Positions 1,350 to 14,291 of a stretch of 34,711 bases of DNA are shown here, piece by piece. Origin of the DNA: Rhizobiales bacterium PAR1. Lineage in GTDB: Bacteria; Pseudomonadota; Alphaproteobacteria; Rhizobiales; Beijerinckiaceae. A program made the translations under genes and the position numbers. Location of the stretch: assembly GCA_002256205.1 (NCBI GenBank), contig NKIW01000011.1, forward strand, positions 74,055 through 108,765, in the 5' to 3' direction. How positions within the stretch are numbered: position 1 is the stretch's first letter; each line of letters opens with the position of its first letter. The notes beneath the pieces are model-generated. The model made no database searches. It worked only from the letters and a program-made list of their open reading frames with translations, and was not told the origin of the DNA.

Positions 1350-2321
1350 TCACTCCAGTGGATGATGGCAGGCGATGGCATGGCCGGCGGTCTCGACCAA
1401 CAGCGGTCGCTCGCTCCGGCAAAGGGCGCTGGCACGTGGGCAACGCGCCGCAAAGGCGCAGCCCGGCGGCCGATCATAGGGGCTCGCGATTTCCCCTGTT
1501 ATCGGCTGCACCTCGCGCCGCCGCGTCGGGTCCGGCACGAAGGTTGAGGCCATCAGGGCCAAGGTATAAGGATGGCGCGGGCGGGCCTGCGGCTCCGGCA
1601 GAATTTCCACCACCGCGCCGAGATACATCACCACGATCCGGGTGCAGAAATAGCGCACGAGGCGGAGATCGTGGCTGATGAAAACATAGGTAAGCCCGAG
1701 CCGTGCGTGCAGCGCTTCCAGAAGCGCGATGATCTGCGCCTGAATCGAGACATCGAGCGAGGCGGTGGGCTCATCGAGCACCACGAGCGAGGGTTCCAGC
1801 GCCAGCGCCCGTGCGATCCCGACCCGCTGTTTCTGTCCGCCAGAGAGGTGATGCGGGTAGTTGCCGCCAAGCGAGGGATCAAGCCCCACCATGGTCAGGA
1901 GAGCCGCTACCCTGGCATCGGCTTCCGCCTCGGTCAGCCCGATGCCCTGAACCTCGAAGGGTTCGAGCACGGCATCGCGGATCGAAAAGCGCGGATCGAT
2001 CGACGAATAGGGATCCTGGAACACCATCTGCATCCGCCGCCGCATGGCACGCAAAGCGGGGGCGCCGAGGGTTGCAAGATCGGCATCCTCGAAGCGCACG
2101 TGACCGGCACTGGGGGCGATCAGCCCGGTGATCAGTCGTGCGAGGGTGGATTTGCCGCAACCGGATTCCCCCACGACACCGGTGATTTCGCCACGCTGAA
2201 GGGCAAGCGTAACCTGATCCACCGCCTGCATCGTGCGGCGCGGCCGGAAAAGGCCACCGCCTGCCGAATAGCTGCGGCTGACGCTGTCGAGCACAACAAG
2301 CGGAGCAGCGCGATCACCCAT
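1350..2321 (-). CDS. Peptide-type ABC transporter ATP-binding protein (OppF/DppF-like)
   Basis: This 323-residue ATPase powers import by the permeases encoded upstream. Walker A is at about 51-59 (GESGCGKST), the Q-loop at 102, the signature LSGGQ at 159-163, Walker B LVVLDEP at 179-185 and the H-loop histidine at 217. The C-terminal oligopeptide-transporter extension has the usual cysteines (288, 294, 301, 318). An earlier in-frame ATG exists at 2351, but the start at 2321 has a strong GGAGGTG Shine-Dalgarno and overlaps the upstream ATPase stop by 8 bases, so I chose it. It pairs with the OppD-like protein to form the nucleotide-binding heterodimer. Substrate is not readable from the ATPase. 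Confidence 0.93.
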   Translation of the reverse strand: MGDRAAPLVVLDSVSRSYSAGGGLFRPRRTMQAVDQVTLALQRGEITGVVGESGCGKSTLARLITGLIAPSAGHVRFEDADLATLGAPALRAMRRRMQMVFQDPYSSIDPRFSIRDAVLEPFEVQGIGLTEAEADARVAALLTMVGLDPSLGGNYPHHLSGGQKQRVGIARALALEPSLVVLDEPTASLDVSIQAQIIALLEALHARLGLTYVFISHDLRLVRYFCTRIVVMYLGAVVEILPEPQARPRHPYTLALMASTFVPDPTRRREVQPITGEIASPYDRPPGCAFAARCPRASALCRSERPLLVETAGHAIACHHPLE

Positions 2322-3276
2322 GCGCCACCTCCGTAACCCAGTCGCAGGCAACGCGTGCCGCGCCCAGACGTTGCTCTGGTGGCACGTTCACCGCACAGGC
2401 GGGCACGGCCAATGCGCAACGCGGATGATAGCGACAGCCCGAGGGGTAGGCGAAAACACCGGGAATAGTCCCCGGAATACCGACGAGGGAACCCGATGCC
2501 TGCCCCTCTTTCGCGATGCAGCCGATGAGCGCGCGCGTATAGGGATGGCGGGGCGAAGCGAAAATCTCGCCCACGGCAGCAAATTCGGCGAGCCGCCCGG
2601 CGTAGAGCACCGCAACCTTGTCGCAGGCCTGCGCAACGACACCCATGTCATGCGTGATCAGGATCAGCGCTAACCCGCGCTGGCGGACGAGATCGACCAG
2701 AATCTGGATGATCTGTGCCTGAATGGTCACATCGAGCGCCGTCGTCGGCTCATCCGCGACGATGAGGTCCGGTTCGCCCATCAGCGCCATGGCGATGACG
2801 ATGCGCTGCTTCATCCCGCCCGATAACTGGTGCGGATATTGGCCGTGGACGGTTGCTGCATCAGGGATTCGCAGCTGTTCCATGATCTCGATGCTGCGCT
2901 CCCTCGCGGCCTCAGCGCGCATCCCCATATGGAGTGTTCCGACCTGATCGATCTGCGCGCCGACGGTACGGATCGGATCAAGCGAGGTCATCGGATTTTG
3001 CGTGATCAGCGCCATGCGTTTGCCACGCAAGCGGCGATAGTCCGCCTCCGGAAGTTTGGTGAGTTCCACCCCGTCAAAGCGGATCGCCCCCGCGCTCACT
3101 TTGCCGCCGATCAATGGCAGGAGGCCCATGATCGCGAGCGCCGTCATGGATTTTCCGGAACCCGACTCACCGACAATGCCGAGAATTTCTCCCCTATCGA
3201 TATCAAGGCTGAGGCGATCAAGCGGTTCAGCCTGTCCGATAGTGACGGCGATAGTGTCGAGCGTGAGGAGCGCCAT
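2314..3276 (-). CDS. Peptide-type ABC transporter ATP-binding protein (OppD/DppD-like)
   Basis: A 320-residue ATPase with Walker A at 36-43 (GESGSGKS), Q-loop Q93, signature LSGGM at 151-155, Walker B LIVADEP at 171-177 and H-loop H209. The C-terminal part carries the family's cysteine-containing HPRCALAVPAC-type extension. It starts one base after the stop of the upstream permease and its end overlaps the next ATPase, which indicates translational coupling in one operon. It is the second half of the ATPase pair of a dipeptide/oligopeptide/nickel-class importer acting at the inner membrane. Confidence 0.93.
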   Translation of the reverse strand: MALLTLDTIAVTIGQAEPLDRLSLDIDRGEILGIVGESGSGKSMTALAIMGLLPLIGGKVSAGAIRFDGVELTKLPEADYRRLRGKRMALITQNPMTSLDPIRTVGAQIDQVGTLHMGMRAEAARERSIEIMEQLRIPDAATVHGQYPHQLSGGMKQRIVIAMALMGEPDLIVADEPTTALDVTIQAQIIQILVDLVRQRGLALILITHDMGVVAQACDKVAVLYAGRLAEFAAVGEIFASPRHPYTRALIGCIAKEGQASGSLVGIPGTIPGVFAYPSGCRYHPRCALAVPACAVNVPPEQRLGAARVACDWVTEVAHG

Positions 3277-3277
3277 G

Positions 3278-4123
3278 TCAGCCCTCCCTCAACTTGCCGC
3301 GAATATCGAGCGCATCGATCAGCGCATCTCCGAAGAGGTTGATCGAGACGACCGCAACCGCAATCACGAGACCTGGATAGAGAATGACCCAGGGCGCAAT
3401 GAAAATCTGCGCTGTGCCTGAACTCATGATCGCGCCCCAGCTCGGCAGCGGCGGCTGCGCACCAAGGCCGAAAAATCCGAGCGTCGCTTCAAGAATGATC
3501 GCATCACCGGTCGCGAGCATCCCGGCAACTAGCACCGGCGTCATCGCGTTCGGGATGAGATGCCGGAACAGGATCGCGGCGTCCGAGGCGCCAAGATTGC
3601 GCGCCGCCTCGATATAGGTCTCGCCCTTTAGCGCGATGATCTGCGCCCGCGTGAGCCGCGCGAATTGCGCGAAATACCCGACCGTGATCGCTACCGCTGT
3701 CGAGCCAAGGCCCGGCCCGATGATCGCGATCAGCACTAGCGCAATCAGGATTTCAGGGAAGGACCATGTCATGTCGGAAATCGCCATCAGGGTGCGATCC
3801 ACCCAGCCGCCGAAATAGCCGGCGAGGCCACCGATGATCACACCGATCAGGACGGAAGCCGCCATCGAACTCACCGCGACGCCAAGCGAGATCCGCGCGC
3901 CGTAGAGGATGCGCGAGAAGAGATCGCGCCCGAATTCATCCGTCCCCATCCAGTGCTTGGCATCAGGCTCCATATTGGCGGAGGGCAGGTGCATGGCGTC
4001 ATAAGGGAAGGGGGCGAGCAGCGGCGCGAAAATCGCACAGAACACGAGCGCCAGCAGCACCAACGCAGCCGGGCCACCGCGCAAGGTCCGCGCGGCTTTG
4101 AGGAGGGGCGCAAGCGCACGCAT
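3278..4123 (-). CDS. Peptide-type ABC transporter permease (OppC/DppC-like)
   Basis: A 281-residue inner-membrane protein with a first hydrophobic segment near residues 18-37 and further segments through to the C-terminus. It has the OppC features: the MGTDEFGRDLFSRILYGAR stretch after the first periplasmic segment, and the cytoplasmic coupling loop EAARNLGASDAAILFRH that contacts an ATPase. The start overlaps the upstream permease stop by one base (TGATG). Together with the OppB-like protein it forms the translocation pore. Length and motif order are normal for the family. Confidence 0.93.
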   Translation of the reverse strand: MRALAPLLKAARTLRGGPAALVLLALVFCAIFAPLLAPFPYDAMHLPSANMEPDAKHWMGTDEFGRDLFSRILYGARISLGVAVSSMAASVLIGVIIGGLAGYFGGWVDRTLMAISDMTWSFPEILIALVLIAIIGPGLGSTAVAITVGYFAQFARLTRAQIIALKGETYIEAARNLGASDAAILFRHLIPNAMTPVLVAGMLATGDAIILEATLGFFGLGAQPPLPSWGAIMSSGTAQIFIAPWVILYPGLVIAVAVVSINLFGDALIDALDIRGKLREG

Positions 4124-5049
4124 CAGCTCACCCTGTCCCGGATGCGCGGGTCCATCGCCGCCTGAACGATATCCGCCAGCAAGGTGCCAAGCATCACGGC
4201 GATGCCAAGCATCAGAAGGCAGCCCTGAACCACCGGGTAGTCCCGCTGGTTGAGCGAGGTAATCAGGAGCGAGCCCAGCCCCGGCCGGGCAAAGACGAAT
4301 TCGATCGTCACCGCACCGCCCAAAATCCAGCCGATCTTGAGGCCGAGAAGCGTCACCACCGGCAGCATGGCATGGCGCAGGATATGGCGGAGGTAGATCT
4401 CCCGCCGCGAGACGCCCTTGGCATGCAGCATCAACACAAAATCCTGCCGCGCCGCATCGAGCATCGCGACGCGGGTGACGCGCGCGACGAGCGCGATCCC
4501 GCCGAGGCCGATGGTCAGCACCGGCAGCACCATGGCCTGCCAGTTCTTCGCGCCAGAGACCGGAAACCAGCCGAGTTCGACGGCAAAAATCAGGATCATC
4601 ATCAGCCCGAGCCAGAAGCTCGGCACCGTGGAACCGGCTAAAATGATGCCCATCAGCGCGCGGTCAAAAAAGCTGTCCTTCGCCATGGCGGCAAGAGCGC
4701 CGATGGTCACGCCAATGACGGTAGAGAATACCAGCGCGGCACTGCCAAGCGCGAGGGAATAGGGCAGGTTCTGCGCGATCAACGTGGAAACCGGCTGCTT
4801 GAGGATGATCGCATCACCGAGGTCACCCTGCACCAGCTTGCCGAGCCAGATGCCATATTGCACCAGAAGCGGTTGATCGAAACCGTATTTCGCCATCAGC
4901 GCCGCCTTGCGCTCGGGCGAGGAACCGATTTGCAGGATATGGTCGATCGGATCGCCCGGCACGAGGTGGATGATCATGAAGATTACCACCGAAAGGCCGA
5001 GGAAAACCGGGATCAGCAGCAGAAGTCGCCGCGCGAAATAGCTGATCAT
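4123..5049 (-). CDS. Peptide-type ABC transporter permease (OppB/DppB-like)
   Basis: A 308-residue inner-membrane permease. The N-terminus is a hydrophobic helix (residues about 5-27) followed by the family motif PGDPIDHIL, and the coupling loop around MLHAKGVSRREIYLRH lies in the second half before more membrane helices. It begins 32 bases after the binding-protein stop and ends in a one-base overlap with the OppC-like gene. The order binding protein, B, C, D, F is the standard Opp/Dpp arrangement. Confidence 0.93.
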   Translation of the reverse strand: MISYFARRLLLLIPVFLGLSVVIFMIIHLVPGDPIDHILQIGSSPERKAALMAKYGFDQPLLVQYGIWLGKLVQGDLGDAIILKQPVSTLIAQNLPYSLALGSAALVFSTVIGVTIGALAAMAKDSFFDRALMGIILAGSTVPSFWLGLMMILIFAVELGWFPVSGAKNWQAMVLPVLTIGLGGIALVARVTRVAMLDAARQDFVLMLHAKGVSRREIYLRHILRHAMLPVVTLLGLKIGWILGGAVTIEFVFARPGLGSLLITSLNQRDYPVVQGCLLMLGIAVMLGTLLADIVQAAMDPRIRDRVS

Positions 5050-5081
5050 CCCGGTTTCCCGTTTTTCACGTCAGTTCCGGT

Positions 5082-6689
5082 TCAGTTCGTGATTTCGGAG
5101 TCGAGGATCGTCTGGCTGGTCAGACGCACGCCACGTACGGTCTCCGGCAGCTTCAGCTTCTTGGTCGAATAAGCGAAGATATTTACCGGCTCGTAGATCG
5201 GCGCGAAGGCATACTGCGAGAGAATATACTCGTGGTATTTGCGGAAATTGACGACGCGCTCATCCCAGGTGCGGGATTTCGTCATCGCGATCACATTGAG
5301 TTCCTCGGCCTTCGGATCGTTGAGCAGCGAGACGTTCGGATAGCCCGCGCGCTTGGCAGCGAAGAACCAGTCGATGATGTCCGCATTCGTCCAGGAATAG
5401 GAGCGCACCGCGAGCTGGTGATCGGTCTTCTTCTTGTACTGCGCGTTGATCGTGGAGGCGTCGAACACCGTGATATCCGCCGCCATGCCCACCGCCTTGA
5501 GCTGCGCCTGCACCACTTCAGTGATGCGCTTGAACTCGGTGCCATTAGTCGTCCAGAGCTTCACCTGAAGCTTCTTGCCGTCCTTCTCGCGAATGCCATC
5601 TGCGCCGGGCTTCCAGCCAGCTTCATCGAGGAGCTTCTTCGAGCGCTCCGCGTCATAGGAAATCGCAAATTTCGGATCAACCTTGGCTTCCGCAAGACCC
5701 GAAATCAGGAAGCCGTTCGCGGGCACGCCGACACCGCCGTAAAGCGTCTGCCAGATGTCCTTCTGGTTGACGGCATAGGCCGCCGCCGCGCGCACCTTGA
5801 TATCCGTAAAGGGCTCGGCCTGCGTATTGATCGGCATGTAGACGATTTCCGTGCCGGGGATTTGCATCACCTTCACGGTTTTCTCACTCTTCAGACGCGG
5901 CAGGAAATCCGCCGGCACGGTGTAAAGAAGGTCAACGCCACCGGTCTTGAGTTCGAGGAAGGCGGTTGAATCATCCGCAATCTCGCGCACCGTGATCTTC
6001 TTGATCTTGGCCGGTCCCTTGTTCACCGAAAGGTCCGAAGGCCATTTGTAATCGTCGTTACGCACTAGAACCGTCTGCTGGCCGACGGTGAAGCTCTCGA
6101 CCTTGTAGGGACCCGTACCGACCGACGCGGTGACACCGAACTTGTCGCCGAGGGCATCATACGCCTTGGGCGAGGGGATACCCATGAACGAGGTCGAAAG
6201 GTTGAAAAGAAGGTTCGGGTCCGGGTTCTTCATGTGGAACTTAACCGTGAGATCATCCACAACCTCGACGCGCTCGATGGCCGCCACAGTATCGGCATTC
6301 TCGGTGCCCTTGAACTTTGGCACCCACCATTCGATGACCTTGGCGTTGAAGGGTTCGCCGTCGTGGAACTTCACACCTGCCTTGAGCTTGAAGGTCCACT
6401 GCATGCCGTCCGGCGTGGTCTCCCACGAGGTTGCGAGATGCGGGTGAAAGCTCTGGTCGGCATCCTGCTGGATCAGGCGATCATAGATCAGCGAGTTGGC
6501 GCTGTTGAGTTTGGTTGCGGTGATCGGGTTATAGGTCGGAGTGCCGACCTCGCGCGCGGTGACGGCGAAGGTTGCCTCCTGCGCCAGCGCAACCGTCAGC
6601 GCGCCGAAAGCCACGCCGGCGCCAAGGATCGAGGAAACGGCGAGCCGCCTGAGGCTCAAAGGGCGGGAGAATGTCATTGAGGTGGTCAT
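5082..6689 (-). CDS. Periplasmic substrate-binding protein of the peptide-type ABC transporter (SBP family 5)
   Basis: A 535-residue secreted receptor. Residues 1 to about 36 form a Sec-type signal peptide (basic SLRRLAVSS stretch, then a hydrophobic core ending in ALA). The mature protein follows the family 5 pattern: an early YNPITATKLNSANSLIYDRL segment, then SWETTPDGMQWTFKLKAGVKFHDGEPF, and a typical C-terminal lobe. The frame is open further upstream to 6794, but the ATG at 6689 has GGAG about 8 bases ahead and puts the signal peptide at the N-terminus. It lies 28 bases downstream of the RpiR-like regulator. Such receptors bind peptides, opines or sugars; the neighbouring M81 peptidase suggests a peptide-like ligand, by inference. 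Confidence 0.92.
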   Translation of the reverse strand: MTTSMTFSRPLSLRRLAVSSILGAGVAFGALTVALAQEATFAVTAREVGTPTYNPITATKLNSANSLIYDRLIQQDADQSFHPHLATSWETTPDGMQWTFKLKAGVKFHDGEPFNAKVIEWWVPKFKGTENADTVAAIERVEVVDDLTVKFHMKNPDPNLLFNLSTSFMGIPSPKAYDALGDKFGVTASVGTGPYKVESFTVGQQTVLVRNDDYKWPSDLSVNKGPAKIKKITVREIADDSTAFLELKTGGVDLLYTVPADFLPRLKSEKTVKVMQIPGTEIVYMPINTQAEPFTDIKVRAAAAYAVNQKDIWQTLYGGVGVPANGFLISGLAEAKVDPKFAISYDAERSKKLLDEAGWKPGADGIREKDGKKLQVKLWTTNGTEFKRITEVVQAQLKAVGMAADITVFDASTINAQYKKKTDHQLAVRSYSWTNADIIDWFFAAKRAGYPNVSLLNDPKAEELNVIAMTKSRTWDERVVNFRKYHEYILSQYAFAPIYEPVNIFAYSTKKLKLPETVRGVRLTSQTILDSEITN

Positions 6690-6717
6690 GAGCGGCTCCG
6701 TCAGTTGGGGCAGGGGT

Positions 6718-7608
6718 TCAGAACAGGGGGGCACGATCCGGGCCGTTGTCGTCGCCGACATAGCCGGTAAAGAGACTGTAGAGCTGCGAGACACGGTTCA
6801 TCCGCGCCTCGACACCGGGGCCGATCTCGATGGAAATCGCGTTCATCATCAAGTTGATCAGCGAAGCCATCTGGGCCGTCGAATCCCAGAAGAGGTTAAA
6901 TTCGGTTGGTACGACGAACATTTCCGAGACCGAACTCTGACCCCAGGTGCAGAAGGCATCCGTGATCAGCGTCACCGGAATACCCGCCGCATGGGCCTCA
7001 CGCGCCAGCACAGCCGCGAGCCGCGAGTAGCGCCGCGCCTCGAAGATCACGAGAGCGCAATCCTCGGGATCGGTCGCCAGAATCTCGACGAAATTGCCGC
7101 CCGCAAGATCCACCACGCTGACGCCATCGCGCAAATACTGAAGCTGATGGCCGAACATATGCGCCATGCCGCGCTCGGTCTGGAACCCGGCGACAAAAAC
7201 ACGCCGCGCCGAAGCGAGACGCTTGACCACGCGCGGCCATTCCTCGCCCTGCGCGAGTTCATAGACTGCGACGAGGCCCGCCATTTCGAGTTTAAGCGCC
7301 GCCGCAAGCTGATCCTTGTCCGCAAGCGATTTCTGCTGAAACTCCCGCATCCGGTCGCTGATCAGCCAAGGCTTGTCGCCAATATCCTGCCCGAGCTGCT
7401 GCTTGAGATCCTTGAAGCTGGCATAGCCGAGAGCACGGCAGAAGCGCCCGACCGTGGGCTCGCTGACACCCACCTTTTCGCCAAGGCTCGCGGCGGTCTC
7501 AAACGGAATGACCGTGGTCTTCGCAAGAATATAGCTCGCCAGCGCGCGATCCGCCTTTGATCCGGCGACCAGACGCTCCTTCAGCCGTTCGCGAACGCTC
7601 GCTTGCAT
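6718..7608 (-). CDS. MurR/RpiR family transcriptional regulator
   Basis: A 296-residue regulator with the two RpiR domains. The N-terminal helix-turn-helix spans about residues 30-65 (SLGEKVGVSEPTVGRFCRALGY). The SIS domain covers about 125-265 and includes the phosphosugar-isomerase-like stretch RRVFVAGFQTERG, which in this family senses a small metabolite. It is the first gene of the operon that continues into the ABC importer and M81 peptidase, so it probably controls that operon and itself. A 19-bp inverted repeat with AGAAAG/CTTTCT arms lies 24 bases upstream of its start. Confidence 0.92.
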   Translation of the reverse strand: MQASVRERLKERLVAGSKADRALASYILAKTTVIPFETAASLGEKVGVSEPTVGRFCRALGYASFKDLKQQLGQDIGDKPWLISDRMREFQQKSLADKDQLAAALKLEMAGLVAVYELAQGEEWPRVVKRLASARRVFVAGFQTERGMAHMFGHQLQYLRDGVSVVDLAGGNFVEILATDPEDCALVIFEARRYSRLAAVLAREAHAAGIPVTLITDAFCTWGQSSVSEMFVVPTEFNLFWDSTAQMASLINLMMNAISIEIGPGVEARMNRVSQLYSLFTGYVGDDNGPDRAPLF

Positions 7609-7631
7609 GCCCCATCCCGCTTGCCTGATGG

Positions 7632-7650
7632 AGAAAGCTGTTATCTTTCT
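7632..7650. promoter_or_regulatory. Inverted repeat, candidate RpiR-type operator
   Basis: AGAAAG, a 7-base spacer, then CTTTCT: perfect 6-base arms. It lies in the 161-base divergent region between the regulator and the FAD oxidoreductase, where the DNA turns AT-rich. Placement suits control of one or both genes. A chance repeat is possible, as the arms are short. Confidence 0.35.
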
Positions 7651-7769
7651 TTCACTCTGTCAAATGTTTTTATTTTTCTTGCGAAACGCCTCATGATGCG
7701 CTCAATAATGAAGCAGTGGAGCCTCGCCTACCCGGGCGTCCCGCCATGCAGGAGCGCGAAACGCCGACC

Positions 7770-8900
7770 ATGACAGGCTATGATTTTCTGGTGATCGGCG
7801 CCGGAATCTCCGGAGCTTCGGCGGCTTTTTCGCTGGCAAAACGAGGCAAAACCCTGCTGCTCGAAGCCGAGACCCTGCCGGGCTACCACAGCACCGGCCG
7901 CTCGGCAGCGCTGTATACGCCGAATTTCGGCTCCCCCGTGGTGCGCAAGCTCAACATGGCCGGGCATGGTTTTTTCGCCACCCCGCCGGAGGGATTCTCC
8001 GAGCGCCCGCTGCTGACACCGCGCCAGTCATTGACGCTCGCAAGGCCGGGCGAAGAGGCCAAACTCGCTGCCGTGTTGGCCTGCTCGACCGCAGAGCACC
8101 CCATCCTGCCGATTTCCGCCGAGGAAGCCTATCGTCTCGCGCCGATCTTGCGCCGCGAGGTGATCGGTGCCGCCGCACTGGAACCTGGTGTGACGGATAT
8201 GGATGTCGCGGCGATCCATCAGGGATTCCTGCGCGGCTTTCGTCTGAGGGGCGGCGAATTACGCTGTGCGGCGGGCGTCTCGGCACTTCACCGTGAAGCA
8301 GCGGGTTGGCGGGTAGAAGCGGGTGGCGAGATTTTCCATGCCGGTGTGGTCGTCAATGCCGCCGGCGCTTGGGGGGATGCGATTGCGCAGCTTGCCGGTA
8401 TTGCGCCCATCGGCCTCGTCGCCAAGCGCCGCACCATTATCGGCATCGAGACCACGATGCAGGTAAGCGACATGCCGCTTATCGAATTTGCCGGTGAAGA
8501 GGGCTATCTCAAGCCCGATACGGGCCGTATCCTCGCCTCGCCGGGCGATGAAACGCCTGTTGCTCCGCAGGATATTCAGCCCGAGGAATGGGATATCGCG
8601 GTGACGGTTGATTGGCTCCAACGCCATACCGTGCTGGATATCCGCCGTGTCGCCAACAGCTGGGCAGGCCTTCGCACCTTCGTGGCGGATCATGCGCCAG
8701 TGGTCGGGTTTGACCCCGAGCATCCCGGCTTCTTCTGGCTTGTCGGGCAGGGTGGCTACGGCATCATGCACTCGCCAACTCTGGGACGGGCGACCACCAG
8801 CCTGATCGAGACAGGTGAACTTCCCGCCGATCTCTTGGCCCTTGGCCTTACCCGTGATGATCTCAGCCCAGCGCGCCTCAGGGCAATCGCGTCAGCCTGA
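7770..8900 (+). CDS. FAD-dependent oxidoreductase, DAO family
   Basis: A 376-residue flavoenzyme. It opens with the dinucleotide-binding fold, GAGISG near residues 9-14 and an acidic residue ending strand two (LLLEAE), followed by STGRSAALYTP, typical of D-amino-acid-oxidase-like enzymes. The C-terminal FAD motif GQGGYGIMHSPTLG is also present. The family oxidises amino acids, hydroxy acids or glycerol phosphates. Starts at 7716 (GTG) and 7746 (ATG) are in frame; I prefer 7770 because it puts the Rossmann motif close to the N-terminus, though no start has a strong Shine-Dalgarno. It diverges from the RpiR/Opp/M81 operon and may act on the same compound. Its end overlaps the convergent aldolase-sialidase gene by 23 bases. 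Confidence 0.86.
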   Translation: MTGYDFLVIGAGISGASAAFSLAKRGKTLLLEAETLPGYHSTGRSAALYTPNFGSPVVRKLNMAGHGFFATPPEGFSERPLLTPRQSLTLARPGEEAKLAAVLACSTAEHPILPISAEEAYRLAPILRREVIGAAALEPGVTDMDVAAIHQGFLRGFRLRGGELRCAAGVSALHREAAGWRVEAGGEIFHAGVVVNAAGAWGDAIAQLAGIAPIGLVAKRRTIIGIETTMQVSDMPLIEFAGEEGYLKPDTGRILASPGDETPVAPQDIQPEEWDIAVTVDWLQRHTVLDIRRVANSWAGLRTFVADHAPVVGFDPEHPGFFWLVGQGGYGIMHSPTLGRATTSLIETGELPADLLALGLTRDDLSPARLRAIASA

Positions 8901-10824
8901 CGTGCTTGATCGCCTGCCGGTGGTAGGTGAAGGCGATATCGAGGCTACCGCCCGCCAGTTGATGCACCGAGGGGTAGGAGAGTTCACGATTTTTCCGGTC
9001 GGTGGAATTGTTGGTCATGCAGTAGCCGTCGCCGGTTTCGATCTCAATCCGGTCCGGCCATGTTCGCCCGCCATCCGACGAGAGCGCGAGCAACAGTGGC
9101 GCACGCGGTGCACCCCAGAACGCCGTACGGGCGCGGGGCAGGGCAGCCGCAGATGGCTGAGCCGTTCCCTCCTCATCCTCTATTTCATCGTAGAGCGAAA
9201 GCCGGCGCTCGGCGGCATTTTCCGCGCTGGAATGGTTGTAGACCAGCGCCAACCGCCCGTCGGTGAGGCGCGTGCACTGAATTGAGGAGTTGTTATTCGG
9301 CAGCTCGGTAGGCTTGGGTTCAGACCACGTAAGACCGCCATCGGGCGAACGCGATTCATGGACAAAATCCGCCCAGCGGCTGCGGAACAGCGCCAGAAGC
9401 TCACCTTTTCCGGCCTCGACGATGTTCATATGCACAGAGCCGAGGCTTCCGGGCACCTCAATCGACCGCCATGTCCTGCCCTGATCGGAGGAAAGACGCA
9501 CGACGCTGATATCCTCATCCCCGACCCATTTGACGCCCGGATATGTGCGGCAAAGGAAGGTGCCGAGCAGCCAATCGCCATTCGAGAGCACTTGGATTGG
9601 CTGGCGCACAAACGTCCCGGCGTCGCCGATCATCGTCTCGGGCGCTCCCCAGGTTTTGCCGTGGTCGTGCGAGATGCGGCGACGGACAATCGCGGTGTCC
9701 TGATTGCCGGATTTCTGCGAGGTGTAGACGAGCCAGAGCGGCCCGCCGGGCACGGGAAACAGAATCGGGTTTTGCTCCGAACGCGCCGGATCATCGACGA
9801 GTTTGATCGTCTCGCTCCAGGCCGTCGCGCCAGGTTCGAGGTGCGAAAAATGGACCGAGATATCCGCCATCCCTTCCTGCGTGCCGCCGAACCAGACGCA
9901 ACCAAGCGCGCCATCTCCAAGGGCCATCAGGTTTGCGGCATGGTTCTGCGGGCAAGGCGAGGGGATGAACGCCTCAAGCTGCCCGGCATACGTGGCACGC
10001 GGACGCAGTATACCGTCCTTGCGGATATCTTCACCCATCGCGATTCCACCCTTGAGACGCTGGACGAGGCTTTTCGCCGCATTGCGGATGAACACTGCGT
10101 CGGTCGCAAAACTGATGAAATCGAGGCCATCGGTGAGGCGGCGTTTGAATTCCTCCTCGTTGCCGGAGAGATAGCCGGCAGGTTTGCCCATCGCTTTCAG
10201 ACGACGGAAACCGTCATCAATCGCGGCTTGAACGTCCGGATGCTGCGGATTGCCGATATGCCCCATTGAGGCGGCGAGATCCGAGGGGCCGATGAAGACC
10301 GCATCGACACCCTCCACCGCCGCGATCTCCTCGATCCGTGACAAGGCGCCGGCGGATTCGATCTGCACGATGACGCAAAGCTCGGCCTCGGCGGCGGCGA
10401 AATAGCCCGGTGTCAGGCCGTAATTCGCGGCACGCGAAGCGCCGGAGACACCGCGCACCCCATGCGGTGGAAAGCGGGTGTAGGAGACCGCCGCGCGCGC
10501 TTCCTCGACATTCTCGACGTAGGGAATGAGCAACGTCTGCGCGCCCTGATCGAGAATGCGCTTGATCGTCACCATGTCGTTCCACGCCGGGCGCACCAGC
10601 GCAGAGACACCCGGCGTATTGATCGCCCGCATCTGCTCAATGATATCCGGCACTTCGATGGGCGAATGCTCGGTGTCGATCAGCACCCAATCAAAGCCGC
10701 AGGCCGCGAGCATCTCGGTGAGACCGGGCGAACCGAGAGTCGCGAAAAAGCCGATCTGCTGCTCCTTGCCGAGGCGAGCTTTGAAGAGATTCTTCGGATG
10801 GGCAGGCGCGGGGTGAGTGATCAT
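8878..10824 (-). CDS. HpcH/HpaI-type aldolase fused to a four-Asp-box sialidase-like domain
   Basis: One uninterrupted 648-residue frame holds two families. Residues 1 to about 258 are an HpcH/HpaI aldolase: VLIDTEHSP with H53, R78, the metal ligands E156 (IVQIES) and D182 (IGPSDL), then GNPQHPDV. These enzymes split 2-keto-3-deoxy acids into pyruvate (or a related ketoacid) and an aldehyde. Residues about 275-648 are a BNR/sialidase-like beta-propeller with perfect Asp boxes at 385-392, 445-452, 493-500 and 582-589 and an early FIPSPCPQNHAANL segment. No signal peptide is seen, so both parts should be cytoplasmic. Each domain is about full length for a stand-alone protein. An in-frame ATG at 10038 (residue 263), behind AAGGGTGG, sits at the domain border and could give a separate sialidase polypeptide. 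The gene starts 27 bases after an IclR regulator. Glycosidase activity is inferred, since many BNR proteins are not sialidases. Confidence 0.85.
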   Translation of the reverse strand: MITHPAPAHPKNLFKARLGKEQQIGFFATLGSPGLTEMLAACGFDWVLIDTEHSPIEVPDIIEQMRAINTPGVSALVRPAWNDMVTIKRILDQGAQTLLIPYVENVEEARAAVSYTRFPPHGVRGVSGASRAANYGLTPGYFAAAEAELCVIVQIESAGALSRIEEIAAVEGVDAVFIGPSDLAASMGHIGNPQHPDVQAAIDDGFRRLKAMGKPAGYLSGNEEEFKRRLTDGLDFISFATDAVFIRNAAKSLVQRLKGGIAMGEDIRKDGILRPRATYAGQLEAFIPSPCPQNHAANLMALGDGALGCVWFGGTQEGMADISVHFSHLEPGATAWSETIKLVDDPARSEQNPILFPVPGGPLWLVYTSQKSGNQDTAIVRRRISHDHGKTWGAPETMIGDAGTFVRQPIQVLSNGDWLLGTFLCRTYPGVKWVGDEDISVVRLSSDQGRTWRSIEVPGSLGSVHMNIVEAGKGELLALFRSRWADFVHESRSPDGGLTWSEPKPTELPNNNSSIQCTRLTDGRLALVYNHSSAENAAERRLSLYDEIEDEEGTAQPSAAALPRARTAFWGAPRAPLLLALSSDGGRTWPDRIEIETGDGYCMTNNSTDRKNRELSYPSVHQLAGGSLDIAFTYHRQAIKHVRLTRLP

Positions 10825-10851: not shown

Positions 10852-11673
10852 TTAGCGAGCAACGGAAATCGTGCCGAAACTCAAGGATATTGCGCGCGTG
10901 AGGTCATGAGCGACACGCAAGACTTCCGGCACGGCACGCGCGGCAAAGGCCTCCATCGGCATCCGGTCGGCATGAATAGTGAGGCTAACGCCGGCAACCG
11001 GCGAGCCATCGACATCGAGAACCGCCGCCGCAACGGTACGCAAACCAAAAGCGTTCTCGCCATCCGAAAGAGCGTAACCTCGCGCTTTCACCTCAGCGAG
11101 GCGCGCCAGAATCGCCTCCATATCCACGAGCGTCTTTTCCGAGAGGCGCACACGGTTGGAGCGCTCGAGAAGTTCGCGCTGCCGTTCGATTGGCAGGCAG
11201 GCGAGCAGCACATGGCCGAGCGCCGCGCCATAGGCGCCGGTGCGGCTTCCGGCCCGGCGGTCGAGGTTGAGCTGGGGCAATTCCACCTGCGCGCGTTCGA
11301 CATAGACGACATCCGCCCCGTCGAGCATGCCGAGCGAGGCCGCATCGGCGACCCCCGGTACAAGTTCATGGAGGAGGGGTCGCGCCAGCATCTTCAGATC
11401 AGCACGAGCAAGCGGCGTGTAGCCGAGTTCGAGGCATTTCAGCGTCAGGCGATAGCGCCGACCGCGCGGCACGGACGCGAGATAACCGAGGTGACAAAGC
11501 GTGTGCACCAGCCGGAACGCCGTACCGCGATCCAGCCCCGCGCGCGCCGCAACCTCGGAGATCGTCAATTCCGGGAGACTCGCGTCGAAGACCTTGAGGA
11601 CGGCAAAGGCCTTGACGACGGATTGCACGAGGTTTTTCGGGTTCTCTTCCGGCATTTTTCCAGAAGGCTTCAT
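10852..11673 (-). CDS. IclR family transcriptional regulator
   Basis: A 273-residue regulator. The N-terminal winged helix-turn-helix covers about residues 15-80 (ISEVAARAGLDRGTAFRLVHTL), followed by the IclR ligand-binding domain, which has the family's SLGMLDGADVVYVER and ALGHVLLA segments and ends in VAGVSLTIHADRM. The start overlaps the SDR stop (ATGA) and has GGAGG upstream. Regulators of this family usually sense an aromatic or organic acid and control adjacent catabolic genes, here probably the Bug-SDR-aldolase operon it belongs to. Confidence 0.92.
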   Translation of the reverse strand: MKPSGKMPEENPKNLVQSVVKAFAVLKVFDASLPELTISEVAARAGLDRGTAFRLVHTLCHLGYLASVPRGRRYRLTLKCLELGYTPLARADLKMLARPLLHELVPGVADAASLGMLDGADVVYVERAQVELPQLNLDRRAGSRTGAYGAALGHVLLACLPIERQRELLERSNRVRLSEKTLVDMEAILARLAEVKARGYALSDGENAFGLRTVAAAVLDVDGSPVAGVSLTIHADRMPMEAFAARAVPEVLRVAHDLTRAISLSFGTISVAR

Positions 11674-12356
11674 AGCGAGGAGCCTCCGCAGATCGTGAGC
11701 ACCTGCCCGGTAATCGCACCCGCATCCGGCGAGAGCAGGAACGCCACCGCCGCCGCGACTTCAAAAGGCTGGATGAGCCGCCCGATCGGCGGCACGCGCA
11801 CTGCGACATCGGCCCGGATCGGGTCGTGCAGCATCGGCGTATCAGTCGCGGCAGGAGCAACAACATTCGCCGTAATTCCGCGCGGTGCGAGCTCAATCGC
11901 CCAGGACCGTGCCATGGCCACCAGGGCCGCCTTGGTCGCGGCATATTGGCTGCGGCCAGCCGACCCGCTCGCTGTTCGGCTGCCGATGAGCACGATACGG
12001 CCACCAAGAGTCATTTTCGGCGCCAAAGCATCGGCAAGGTGCTCTGCCGCCGCGACGTGCAGCGCCCACATGCTGGCATGGGCCGAGGATTCCAGCGCGC
12101 CGAGCGCCCCTGTTGCCAGAAATCCGGCGGCATGGATGAAGGCATCGACACCTTCCAGCTTCGTTAGCAGCCCCTCGCGCGCAGTCTCGTCGGAAAGATC
12201 GCACACGACACCGCTGTACGCCGCATGTGCATGCGCTGTCGAGCGGCGGGCCACACCGGTGACGCGCCAGCCTTCAGCCAGCAGACGCCCGATCAGCGCC
12301 GCGCCGATGCCGGAGCTGGCCCCGGTCACGAGGGCATGGCGGGCCTTGACAGGCAT
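11670..12356 (-). CDS. SDR family oxidoreductase
   Basis: A 228-residue classical short-chain dehydrogenase. The cofactor motif TGASSGIG is at 11-18, with RR at 37-38 after strand two suggesting NADP preference. The HAAG motif is at 75-78 and the likely catalytic residues are S126, Y138 and K142 (YAATK). It probably oxidises or reduces a hydroxy/keto compound in the same pathway as the neighbouring aldolase. The ATG at 12356 shares a base with the stop of the binding-protein gene (TGATG); a GTG one codon earlier is also possible. It overlaps the IclR start at its 3' end, so the four genes form one tight operon. Confidence 0.9.
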   Translation of the reverse strand: MPVKARHALVTGASSGIGAALIGRLLAEGWRVTGVARRSTAHAHAAYSGVVCDLSDETAREGLLTKLEGVDAFIHAAGFLATGALGALESSAHASMWALHVAAAEHLADALAPKMTLGGRIVLIGSRTASGSAGRSQYAATKAALVAMARSWAIELAPRGITANVVAPAATDTPMLHDPIRADVAVRVPPIGRLIQPFEVAAAVAFLLSPDAGAITGQVLTICGGSSL

Positions 12357-13342
12357 CACGTCGGCTCGAAATTGATGCTCTTGAGGAGATTGCCCGATCG
12401 GGTCACTTCACTTTTGATGAAGGCACGGGTCTCGGCGATGCTCTCGGCAATCGGCTCGATCAACGTTCCCTTGAGCTTGGCAGAGATCACGGGATCACGC
12501 ATCGTCTCCTGAATCATGGTGTTGACCTTCTCCTGAATGACGACCGGGGTGCCTTTCGGCGCCCAGACGCCATACCACGAGTTAAAGATGAAATCCGGTA
12601 CACCGGCTTCCGAGATCGTCGGCAGATCGGGCGCGAGGACCGAGCGGGCTTTCGAGGCAATGCCCAACGCGCGGATATGGCCCGCACCCCCCGTTTGCGG
12701 CAGCAGCGCGAAGGTCGGGTCAATCAGGAGCTGAACTGTGCCGCCCATCAGATCCTGAAGCGCGGGCGTCGTGCCGCGATAGGGGATCATGTCGATGTTG
12801 AGACCCGTGCGATGCAGGAAATCGACCGTTGCGAGATGGCCGGCTGAGCCGAGCGAGGAAATCGCGAACGAGAACTCGCGCGGGTTCGCCTTGGCCGAGA
12901 CGATGAGTTCGGCGAGCGTTTTTTCCGGACGTTTGGCGGAAATCACCAGCACCAACGGTGCAACTGCGGTGCGCGCGACGACTTCGAGGTCTACCTCCGG
13001 GTTGAAGGTCGCGGCCTTGAGCACCTTCGGCATCACCGCCGTGTTGAAGGCACTCGCGAGAAAGGTGTAGCCATCGGGCTCCGCCTGAATCACGGCATTC
13101 GTGCCGACAAGCCCCGCACCGCCGACGCGGTTTTCAGCGATCGAGGTTGCACTCATGGTTTCCTGAAGGCGCTGCGCCACAAGGCGACCAAGCGCATCAT
13201 TGGCCGCACCGGGCGGCCAGGGGATAATCACCTTGATCGTCTTGCCCGCCTGCGGCCAAGGCGCCTGCGCGGTCACTTCAATGCCGGAGAAGGCAAGCCC
13301 GCCGAGCGCCGCCGCACCTTTCAGAAAATCACGCCGTTTCAT
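12356..13342 (-). CDS. Bug/TctC-type tripartite tricarboxylate transporter substrate-binding protein
   Basis: A 328-residue periplasmic receptor. The N-terminus MKRRDFLKGAAALGGLAF is a twin-arginine type signal peptide, after which the Bug pattern is clear: WPQAGKTIKVIIPWPPGAANDALGRLVAQRL, then VENRVGGAGLVGTNAV-like and MIPYRGTTPALQDLMGG segments. Bug receptors bind carboxylates such as citrate, aromatic acids or amino acids. An ATG 10 codons upstream is in frame, but the one at 13342 has GGAGG well placed and starts the signal peptide. It heads the operon with SDR, IclR and aldolase-sialidase. No TctA or TctB membrane gene is in the window, so the membrane partner must be elsewhere. Confidence 0.92.
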   Translation of the reverse strand: MKRRDFLKGAAALGGLAFSGIEVTAQAPWPQAGKTIKVIIPWPPGAANDALGRLVAQRLQETMSATSIAENRVGGAGLVGTNAVIQAEPDGYTFLASAFNTAVMPKVLKAATFNPEVDLEVVARTAVAPLVLVISAKRPEKTLAELIVSAKANPREFSFAISSLGSAGHLATVDFLHRTGLNIDMIPYRGTTPALQDLMGGTVQLLIDPTFALLPQTGGAGHIRALGIASKARSVLAPDLPTISEAGVPDFIFNSWYGVWAPKGTPVVIQEKVNTMIQETMRDPVISAKLKGTLIEPIAESIAETRAFIKSEVTRSGNLLKSINFEPT

Positions 13343-13380
13343 GGTGCCGTCCTCCCCATGTCGCTTTCTCATTTGATCGG

Positions 13381-13484: not shown

Positions 13485-14291
13485 CTAACCGCCGCCAAGG
13501 GAACGCGCGGGATAGCGCAAGCCGAGATCGAACGGATTGATCGCCGCACCAAGCGCCGACGCTTCAGCCTGCACAATCCGGACAATGCCGGGCAAGCGTT
13601 CCGGCCCCAGACGCTCGGCAAGCGTGCCGATGCTCAGCGCCGCGACAGGAACGCCAGCGGCATCGAAGACCGGGACCCCGAGCCCGGCCATGCCTGGTAT
13701 CAGCCCGGTGTTGAGATTCACCCAGCCCTGCGCACGGGCGGTTTCGAGCGCCGCGCGCATTGTCGCTTCATCCAGAAATCCTCGATCCAGCAAGCGCGGC
13801 ACGTTGAAGCGGATCACCGCCTCGCGCTCCGCCTCGGGCAGATGCGCGAGGATGGCCAGGCTTCCTTGCCCGAGCCCGAGCGGCACCCGGCCGCCGATAT
13901 CCCCCGTGAAGGAGCGGATCGGGAAAGGGCCTTCGATCCGGTCGATGCAGACGGCATCAAAGCGGTCACGGACCAACAGGAACACGGTATCCGACAGGGT
14001 CGCGGAAATCCTGAGCAGCGCGGGGCGGGCAAGGTCACGCAACTGGCTGGTCTGGCGCGATCCTGCCGCGAGCACGAAGAAGCCCAGGCCGAGGCGATAA
14101 CGCCGGGCGACCTGTTCGACAAAGCCTTCCGCGACAAGATCCTGCAACGCCCGGTGTACCGTGGGCTGAGGCATGCCGGTGGCGGCCGCAAGTTCGGTGA
14201 TCCGCATGCCCTGTGCCTCCCCCGCACCCAACACTTTGAGGAGGTTCAGCGCACGGCGCAGGCTGGAAAGGGGTGCAGGAGGATCGTTCAT
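13485..14291 (-). CDS. IclR family transcriptional regulator
   Basis: A 268-residue IclR protein. The DNA-binding domain covers about residues 8-72 (ITELAAATGMPQPTVHRALQDL), and the effector domain includes LSDTVFLLVRDRFDAVCIDRIEG, the glycine-rich VPLGLGQGSLAIL and VAALSIGTL segments. It diverges from the importer/dehydrogenase operon beginning at 14443, and the gap contains two matching inverted repeats, one overlapping a TATAAT box for this gene. It therefore probably represses both itself and the importer operon. It could also act on the Bug operon downstream. Confidence 0.92.
   Translation of the reverse strand: MNDPPAPLSSLRRALNLLKVLGAGEAQGMRITELAAATGMPQPTVHRALQDLVAEGFVEQVARRYRLGLGFFVLAAGSRQTSQLRDLARPALLRISATLSDTVFLLVRDRFDAVCIDRIEGPFPIRSFTGDIGGRVPLGLGQGSLAILAHLPEAEREAVIRFNVPRLLDRGFLDEATMRAALETARAQGWVNLNTGLIPGMAGLGVPVFDAAGVPVAALSIGTLAERLGPERLPGIVRIVQAEASALGAAINPFDLGLRYPARSLGGG

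Follow-up and report, generated by a model that had tools for sequence, protein, structure and literature searches.

A 34,711-nucleotide stretch of the genome of Rhizobiales bacterium PAR1 (positions 74,055 to 108,765 of contig NKIW01000011.1, assembly GCA_002256205.1; hereafter the window) carries on its minus strand, at 8878-10824, a single gene that joins a complete HpaI-type aldolase to a complete BNR_2 sialidase-like beta-propeller. Our reading, tentative and close to an even chance, is that two enzymes encoded in one catabolic operon, both acting on a 2-keto-3-deoxy sugar acid, have here been fused in frame. The conserved neighbourhood in which this altered sialidase-like family is found in other bacteria is a more valuable finding than the fusion itself.

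The fused gene and its two domains

The frame starts with ATG and runs for 648 codons without internal stops, as an earlier note on this DNA had read it. Taken separately, each half covers nearly the whole of its Pfam profile (HpcH_HpaI at residues 23-248, E 2.4e-44, profile positions 1-220 of 221; BNR_2 at residues 305-630, E 4.9e-64, positions 1-277 of 277), and the four perfect Asp boxes (S-x-D-x-G-x-T-W) counted in that note lie at S385-W392, S445-W452, S493-W500 and S582-W589 in fusion numbering, their S, D, G and W positions being invariant across the aligned BNR sequences. The protein consists of a complete aldolase, a three-residue linker (Gly-Ile-Ala) and a complete BNR protein from Met263 onwards (Table 1). 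The AlphaFold2 model of the whole fusion has a mean predicted local distance difference test score (pLDDT) of 85.9 and a predicted TM-score (pTM) of 0.62, with residues 259-264 at pLDDT below 50. The modelling proposed in the note thus returned mostly confident domains, with a sialidase fold for the BNR half, and a low-confidence joint which, together with the pTM, means that no fixed arrangement of the two domains is predicted.

Table 1. Coordinates in the window of the fused gene, its parts and the other genes of the presumed operon.
Feature	Position	Strand	Remark	Evidence
Fused gene, HpaI-type aldolase + BNR_2 sialidase-like propeller	8878..10824	-		open frame, Pfam, AlphaFold2 model
Aldolase half	10048..10824	-	residues 1-259; end matches relatives' separate aldolases (..RL(K/R)G)	
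Junction codons 259-263	10036..10050	-	GGT GGA ATC GCG ATG	alignment with relatives
BNR_2 half	8878..10038	-	own start Met263; 386 codons + stop	Pfam, alignment, model, Foldseek
IclR-family regulator	10852..11673	-	27 bp upstream of fused gene	open reading frame, Pfam
SDR oxidoreductase	11670..12359	-	4 bp overlap with IclR gene	open reading frame, Pfam, synteny
TctC/Bug solute receptor	12356..13372	-	first gene of presumed operon; 4 bp overlap with SDR gene	

The aldolase half aligns with the solved structures 2v5j (residues 11-257) and 1dxe (residues 12-256). H53, R78, E156 and D182, which we take to be the catalytic His and Arg and the metal ligands Glu and Asp, stand in conserved motifs that align with HpaI 2v5j, and together with the whole-length match to PF03328 they place this half among the HpcH/HpaI class II pyruvate aldolases. 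It shares the full-length match and the catalytic motifs with the HpaI and GarL enzymes (PF03328; TIGR02311, TIGR03239), but differs from them in being fused to a propeller and in scoring below their curated cut-offs. The TIGR02311 score of 275.2 bits falls short of the 368.8 required for the HpaI equivalog (4-hydroxy-2-oxoheptanedioate aldolase), and the GarL cut-off of 406.75 is not reached either, so that by these cut-offs the half is assigned to neither substrate.

The BNR half, modelled by itself (pLDDT 85.9, pTM 0.88), has the Asp-box beta-propeller fold of glycoside hydrolase family 33 (GH33): 46 of the 50 Foldseek hits listed are sialidases, neuraminidases, NanA/H/I, trans-sialidases or pseudaminidases, with a TM-score by query length of 0.71 to 1eur and identities of 12-17% across the 50 hits. 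Its active site is altered (residues hereafter in BNR-half numbering). E55 aligns with the Asp of YGGTHD in the leech enzyme 1sli (FGGTQE on YGGTHD) and of GGTHD in 4x6k. H33 falls at the position of the first arginine (Arg1), four columns ahead of the printed 1sli alignment if this stretch is assumed to be gap-free, where 1sli presumably has the Arg of RIPAL. H203 aligns with the Glu, and R219 with the second arginine (Arg2), of 9eob, 4x6k and NanC 4yw1; R312 aligns with the third (Arg3) of 1eur, 6mnj, 4fj6 and 9eob, and Y355 with the Tyr of 9eob. The GH33 residues at these positions are those that we take to be catalytic. The arginine triad is therefore reduced to Arg2 and Arg3, the Tyr/Glu pair keeps its Tyr and has His in place of Glu, and the GH33 Asp is a Glu. 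The profile alignments behind these assignments are weak in score (1sli E 0.44), yet they are consistent with each other and with the fold.

None of the six residues varies among 38 aligned sequences (alignment A1, made of the window plus 37 of the 44 genome_contigs BNR loci; L043, L046, L052, L056, L065 and L080 were omitted as near copies and L072 as a fragment). Since Tyr and two Arg are kept while Arg, Asp and Glu have become His, Glu and His, all of them invariantly, the BNR family appears from its sequences to be a coherent one with a changed active site, neither decayed nor a canonical sialidase. A canonical sialidase, as the wording of the earlier note would allow, is accordingly not supported, with three of six catalytic positions substituted, including the first Arg and the Glu of the Tyr/Glu pair; loss of the sialidase Arg, Tyr and Glu, which the note had named as evidence against itself, is found by half, as the Tyr and two Arg remain. 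Compared with GH33 sialidases, including intramolecular trans-sialidases (1sli, 1eur, NanC), the BNR half is alike in the Asp-box propeller and the retained Tyr, Arg2 and Arg3, but differs in the three substitutions (Arg1 to His33, Asp to Glu55, Glu to His203) and in having no signal peptide visible by eye, for which reason the propeller is probably cytosolic. As a true GH33 comparator we tried L135, the best of four matches, all from one of the three genomes behind L091, L103 and L095, and rejected it as unlike GH33 by eye; at this acidobacterial locus, from a metagenome-assembled genome (MAG), a BNR_2 protein (L135:537-1805) precedes a sugar-acid cytidylyltransferase-like open reading frame (ORF) with a cupin tail (1827-2957; by eye).

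Gene order in relatives and probable origin of the fusion

Four genes in a row on the minus strand (TctC-SDR-IclR-fusion, from 13372 down to 8878) end with the fused gene, and we take them as an operon. The earlier note had placed the SDR and the Bug/TctC receptor in this operon, and synteny with relatives agrees; that both serve the pathway is what we infer. The IclR regulator has counterparts of 80-85% identity at the same position in L034-L037 and L039. Among 17 genomes of the genus, including PAR1 itself, eight have an aldolase orthologue (77-84% identical) and seven a BNR orthologue (74-82%); the BNR gene is split by contig ends in G235 and absent from G227, which has the aldolase. Six other genomes of the genus have both, in each case as two genes that share a contig and a strand and lie about 2.1-3.2 kb from each other, and in L033 they are likewise separate and syntenic. 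The order at L034, L036, L037 and L039 is TctC-SDR-IclR-aldolase-kinase-PdxA2-BNR, the intervening genes of L034 being by Pfam a DUF1537 sugar-acid kinase (PF07005 and PF17042) and a PdxA (PF04166), and in L035 and L072 an iron-containing alcohol dehydrogenase precedes the BNR gene. Relatives' aldolase ORFs are mostly 251-261 codons long (266 in L015 and L077, 278 in L013 and L072, and 268 in L003, the paralogue in PAR1).

The operon of the window has neither the kinase nor PdxA2, and a search of the PAR1 genome found no close copy of either. Its single PdxA (contig C15) lies far away and is 45-47% identical to the operon PdxA2 of L034 and L072, its two DUF1537 proteins resemble the operon kinase only distantly, and no close iron-containing alcohol dehydrogenase was found there (best match 38%). 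At least one PdxA occurs in each of the 17 genus genomes, with three apiece in the four genomes that have the four-gene order. The two DUF1537 kinases of PAR1, one on contig C21 (L118) beside a class II aldolase and the other on contig C8 (L119) beside a RuBisCO-like protein, belong, to judge from neighbours named by eye, to other acid-sugar pathways; the labels OtnK-like, for the C21 kinase, and RuBisCO-like are our assumption. At L072 the iron-containing alcohol dehydrogenase between PdxA2 and the BNR fragment appears as two tblastn matches, perhaps owing to a frameshift in this MAG.

At the junction, codons 257-263 read CTC AAG GGT GGA ATC GCG ATG. Codon 260 (GGA, 10047-10045) coincides exactly with the TGA that follows the terminal RL(K/R)G in the aldolases of L034, L035, L036, L037 and L039, and the L033 aldolase extends two codons past this position. 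The BNR ATG, the same start as in relatives, is in the aldolase frame, 9 nt past the position of the aldolase stop. The fusion apparently arose through gene loss plus a change of stop codon: the kinase and PdxA2 genes would have been lost between the aldolase and the BNR gene, and the aldolase stop would have become a sense codon, both the events and their order being our reconstruction. The two enzymes are thus joined because the intervening genes and the stop codon are both absent. The earlier note was silent on the strand of the gene (minus), on the lost genes that would explain its origin and on the four-carbon acid branch that, as set out below, points to a substrate.

Two explanations bear on whether the fusion matters or exists. 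According to the first, which we consider rather unlikely, it is real and neutral: the BNR protein is made mainly from its own ATG at 10038, and the operon is decaying, its last steps gone. The native BNR Met persists, and GGTGGA, 6 nt before this ATG, may be a ribosome-binding site from which the BNR protein is still started on its own; the missing kinase and PdxA2 are in keeping with decay. Against this, the ratio of non-synonymous to synonymous substitution rates (dN/dS) to relatives is 0.10-0.15 for the aldolase half and 0.16-0.18 for the BNR half, within the 0.03-0.28 found for the same two genes among printed pairs of relatives, although dS is near saturation and most of the time measured may predate the fusion. 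Of the 133 BNR columns that do not vary among the other 37 sequences, the PAR1 protein departs from one, and the window's terminal branches are not flagged as long in the aldolase and BNR trees, in which few inner branches are well supported; a recent event would leave no such trace yet. Both halves look constrained.

According to the second, which is unlikely, the genes are adjacent and separate, and a one-base error at codon 260 masks the stop, in which case the loss of kinase and PdxA2 may still be real. Codon 260 is one base from the exactly aligned TGA of relatives, so that one wrong base could imitate the loss of the stop, our main doubt about the fusion, which is confined to one genome among those searched. 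The 4.2 Mb assembly is, however, in 25 contigs and 99.31% complete, the downstream BNR ATG is in the aldolase frame, and no direct repeat of at least 14 nt touches the junction, though a collapsed repeat could be hidden. Overall, the fusion is likely real.

The search for the same fusion in other genomes, proposed in the earlier note, did not find it: it occurs in one of 17 genus genomes, one of 298 family genomes among the matches listed and one of 397 order genomes at E<=1e-120, in each case that of PAR1, in none of 79 genome_contigs loci and in none of 1000 matching plasmid records, none of which covers 80% of the query. These samples overlap, the family and order searches scored the best 3-4 candidates per genome, and the genome_contigs and plasmid searches possibly excluded records near the window. 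We therefore reject the fusion as a general architecture. A BNR match in G248 (L035) that reaches residue 247, and so might suggest shared aldolase sequence, was likewise rejected, the stretch being the ORF of the iron-containing alcohol dehydrogenase.

Neighbourhoods of BNR genes in other taxa

BNR genes of this family occur in Methylobacterium, Azospirillum, Roseomonas, Rhizobium, Sinorhizobium, Agrobacterium, Pectobacterium, Dickeya, Erwinia, Pantoea, Rahnella, Caballeronia, Priestia and Clostridium, among others. Around the 44 BNR loci from genome_contigs (tblastn at E<=1e-12 with probes drawn from neighbourhoods of this kind and flanks of at most 5 kb; the probes are strict and some flanks short) we detected the SDR at 38, an SSS transporter at 30, the iron-containing alcohol dehydrogenase at 28, YhcH at 23, the DUF1537 kinase and an aldolase of the dihydrodipicolinate synthase (DHDPS) type at 18 each, PdxA2 at 14, TctC at eight and an HpaI-type aldolase at seven. 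Kinase, PdxA2 or iron-containing alcohol dehydrogenase was present at 35 of the 44, SSS or TctC at 38 and either aldolase at 24; a single locus, L049, had none of these. At 31 control loci holding only a distant HpaI homologue, TctC (eight), FadR (three) and the iron-containing alcohol dehydrogenase (two) were detected, and kinase, PdxA2, SDR and BNR at none. By annotation, 14 plasmid regions (one without gene annotation, two being distant homologues) include a DHDPS-family or dapA aldolase in 11, PdxA or D-threonate 4-phosphate dehydrogenase in nine and an iron-containing alcohol dehydrogenase in nine, and one Pantoea copy of PdxA2 is annotated as D-threonate 4-phosphate dehydrogenase. On a plasmid of Caballeronia sp. 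SBC2 the annotated pdxA (L116:4073-6379) is 2307 bp, or 768 codons, long, and kinase-like and PdxA2-like matches both lie between the iron-containing alcohol dehydrogenase and SSS genes; it is probably a second fusion within the same pathway.

A predicted catabolic route

The combination of sialidase-like protein, YhcH anomerase and pyruvate aldolase suggests a cyclic 2-keto-3-deoxy acid as substrate, and that of PdxA2 with a kinase for four-carbon acids suggests that the second product is such an acid. 3-Deoxy-D-lyxo-heptulosaric acid (DHA), a C7 keto-diacid, or a close relative of it fits both clues and is a substrate that we regard as possible, short of an even chance. The sialidase-like half would free an imported 2-keto-3-deoxy sugar acid, or open it into a form ready for the aldolase, and the metal-dependent HpaI half would split it into pyruvate and an aldehyde acid. 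With DHA, a cut between C3 and C4 would give pyruvate and the C4 semialdehyde OHC-CHOH-CHOH-COOH, whose reduction would give threonate; worked out by hand, the D-lyxo C5 and C6 of DHA become C3 and C2 of D-threonate (the D-threo form). In relatives, the DUF1537 kinase and PdxA2 would be the last two steps, leading to dihydroxyacetone phosphate. In PAR1 these would be found elsewhere (e.g. the OtnK-like kinase and class II aldolase on C21) or be lost, and since no close kinase, PdxA2 or iron-containing alcohol dehydrogenase was found in this genome, D-threonate, if made, leaves by another way or the pathway is failing.

DHA and the HpaI substrate 4-hydroxy-2-oxoheptanedioate are two hydroxyls apart. 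The sialate operon (NanA, YhcH, NanM and a transporter) offers a parallel, with its transporter, sialidase-like protein, anomerase YhcH and pyruvate aldolase, but differs in that the four-carbon acid kinase and PdxA2 here replace what is presumably its N-acetylmannosamine branch. YhcH belongs to a sialic-acid anomerase family, and NanM and YhcH supply the open form to sialate aldolase in vitro (PMC8141875, excerpt). DtnK of DUF1537 is a D-threonate kinase (PMC10971088, excerpt), a comparison made at the level of the DUF1537 family, and DtnK with PdxA2 forms the D-threonate pathway (Zhang et al. 2016, via the same excerpt). Relatives' operons resemble that pathway in having a DUF1537 kinase and a PdxA beside the BNR gene, and differ in that a BNR protein and a pyruvate aldolase join the two; the two genes that mark a D-threonate operon are thus present in the relatives and absent from the operon of the window. 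DHA is present in rhamnogalacturonan II (PMC12168206, excerpt) and in prasinophyte scales and the theca of Tetraselmis (PMC10762512, excerpt), sources that suit the plant-associated bacteria and the MAGs with pond or lake names. A weak profile hit to 5mqr (BT_1020; E 0.023, only profile residues 214-273), considered as a link to DHA hydrolases, was not used as evidence. That this protein has a DHA activity is our assumption. BT_1020 is described as a beta-L-arabinofuranosidase (PMC7263609, excerpt).

Several observations weigh against this route. The aldolase also occurs away from BNR: the orthologues at L076-L079 (78-81% identical) have no adjacent BNR, kinase or PdxA2 and stand beside FadR and distant SDR matches, and G227 of the same genus has no BNR. 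Within the flank, no aldolase was detected at 20 of the 44 BNR loci, no kinase at 26 and no PdxA2 at 30, the latter including all enterobacterial loci from genome_contigs (Pantoea and Klebsiella plasmid regions do have PdxA2 within the BNR flank). HpaI and DHDPS aldolases are unrelated, and we infer their equivalence. The usual cargo of SSS carriers is monosaccharides, which would not need a glycosidase. The fusion is known from the assembly of one genome, in which the route would be incomplete, and the literature search yielded no activity for any member of this BNR family. That the two halves belong to one pathway we nevertheless regard as likely, a judgement lowered by the aldolases of L076-L079. 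The consecutive activities proposed in the earlier note (release of the keto acid, then its retro-aldol cleavage) find partial support: a shared operon in relatives and a pyruvate aldolase near BNR elsewhere speak for them, the L076-L079 aldolases against, and by gene order they are plausible as consecutive steps.

A bolder form of the proposal, which we think speculative, is that a DHA catabolic pathway, so far unnamed, exists across Pseudomonadota and some Bacillota, with a cytosolic, His/Glu/His-altered enzyme of the sialidase superfamily as its hallmark and, in PAR1, a bifunctional hydrolase-aldolase that passes on a labile open keto acid. If true, the proposal would say what a widespread protein family of plant-associated and soil bacteria does, one that is annotated 'exo-alpha-sialidase' and whose active site is not that of an ordinary sialidase, and would predict steps of DHA catabolism. 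A literature search on the latter, judged by titles and the openings of abstracts and with subscription papers mostly outside its scope, found no paper, and a search by operon gene names found none on the operon and none matching three of the five. The fusion would be a modest example from nature of a two-domain enzyme that arises from gene loss and a single codon, and it hints at a compound on which both halves act.

The propeller may not be a glycosidase at all: like NanM and YhcH, it would open the ring, as an anomerase or lactonase, and supply the aldolase with the open keto acid. This is a rather unlikely alternative, favoured by the probably cytosolic location, the replacement of three of six catalytic residues, the SSS carriers at 30 of 44 loci and the in vitro precedent with sialate aldolase (PMC8141875, excerpt). 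YhcH is, however, already present at 23 of the 44 loci, so that another anomerase there would be redundant, the Tyr is retained together with two Arg, and loci in Rhizobium etli and Streptomyces have oligopeptide/dipeptide-type ATP-binding cassette (ABC) importers, which suit larger glycosides. Aldol cleavage gives N-acetylmannosamine from sialate and D-arabinose from 3-deoxy-D-manno-octulosonic acid (KDO). A canonical sialidase plus aldolase for sialic acid, KDO or 2-keto-3-deoxynononic acid (KDN) is very improbable, as, despite the GH33 fold, Arg1, Asp and Glu are replaced by His, Glu and His and the operon kinase and PdxA2 act on four-carbon acids, products that sialate and KDO do not yield; sialic acid is accordingly an unlikely substrate.

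Surroundings in the window

A plus-strand gene for an FAD-dependent oxidoreductase (7716-8900) converges on the fused gene and overlaps its 3' end by 23 bp; at L034 a malate synthase-like ORF (6211-8361, named by eye) follows the BNR gene in its place. A second IclR-family regulator (13485-14291, minus strand) lies immediately upstream of the operon. The minus strand at 1350-7608 encodes a peptide/nickel-type ABC transporter (receptor SBP_bac_5 at 5082-6794, permease-like ORFs at 3278-5049, ATPase-like ORFs at 1350-3276) and an RpiR/SIS regulator, and the oligopeptide/dipeptide-type ABC transporter at the Rhizobium etli BNR locus may be compared with it.

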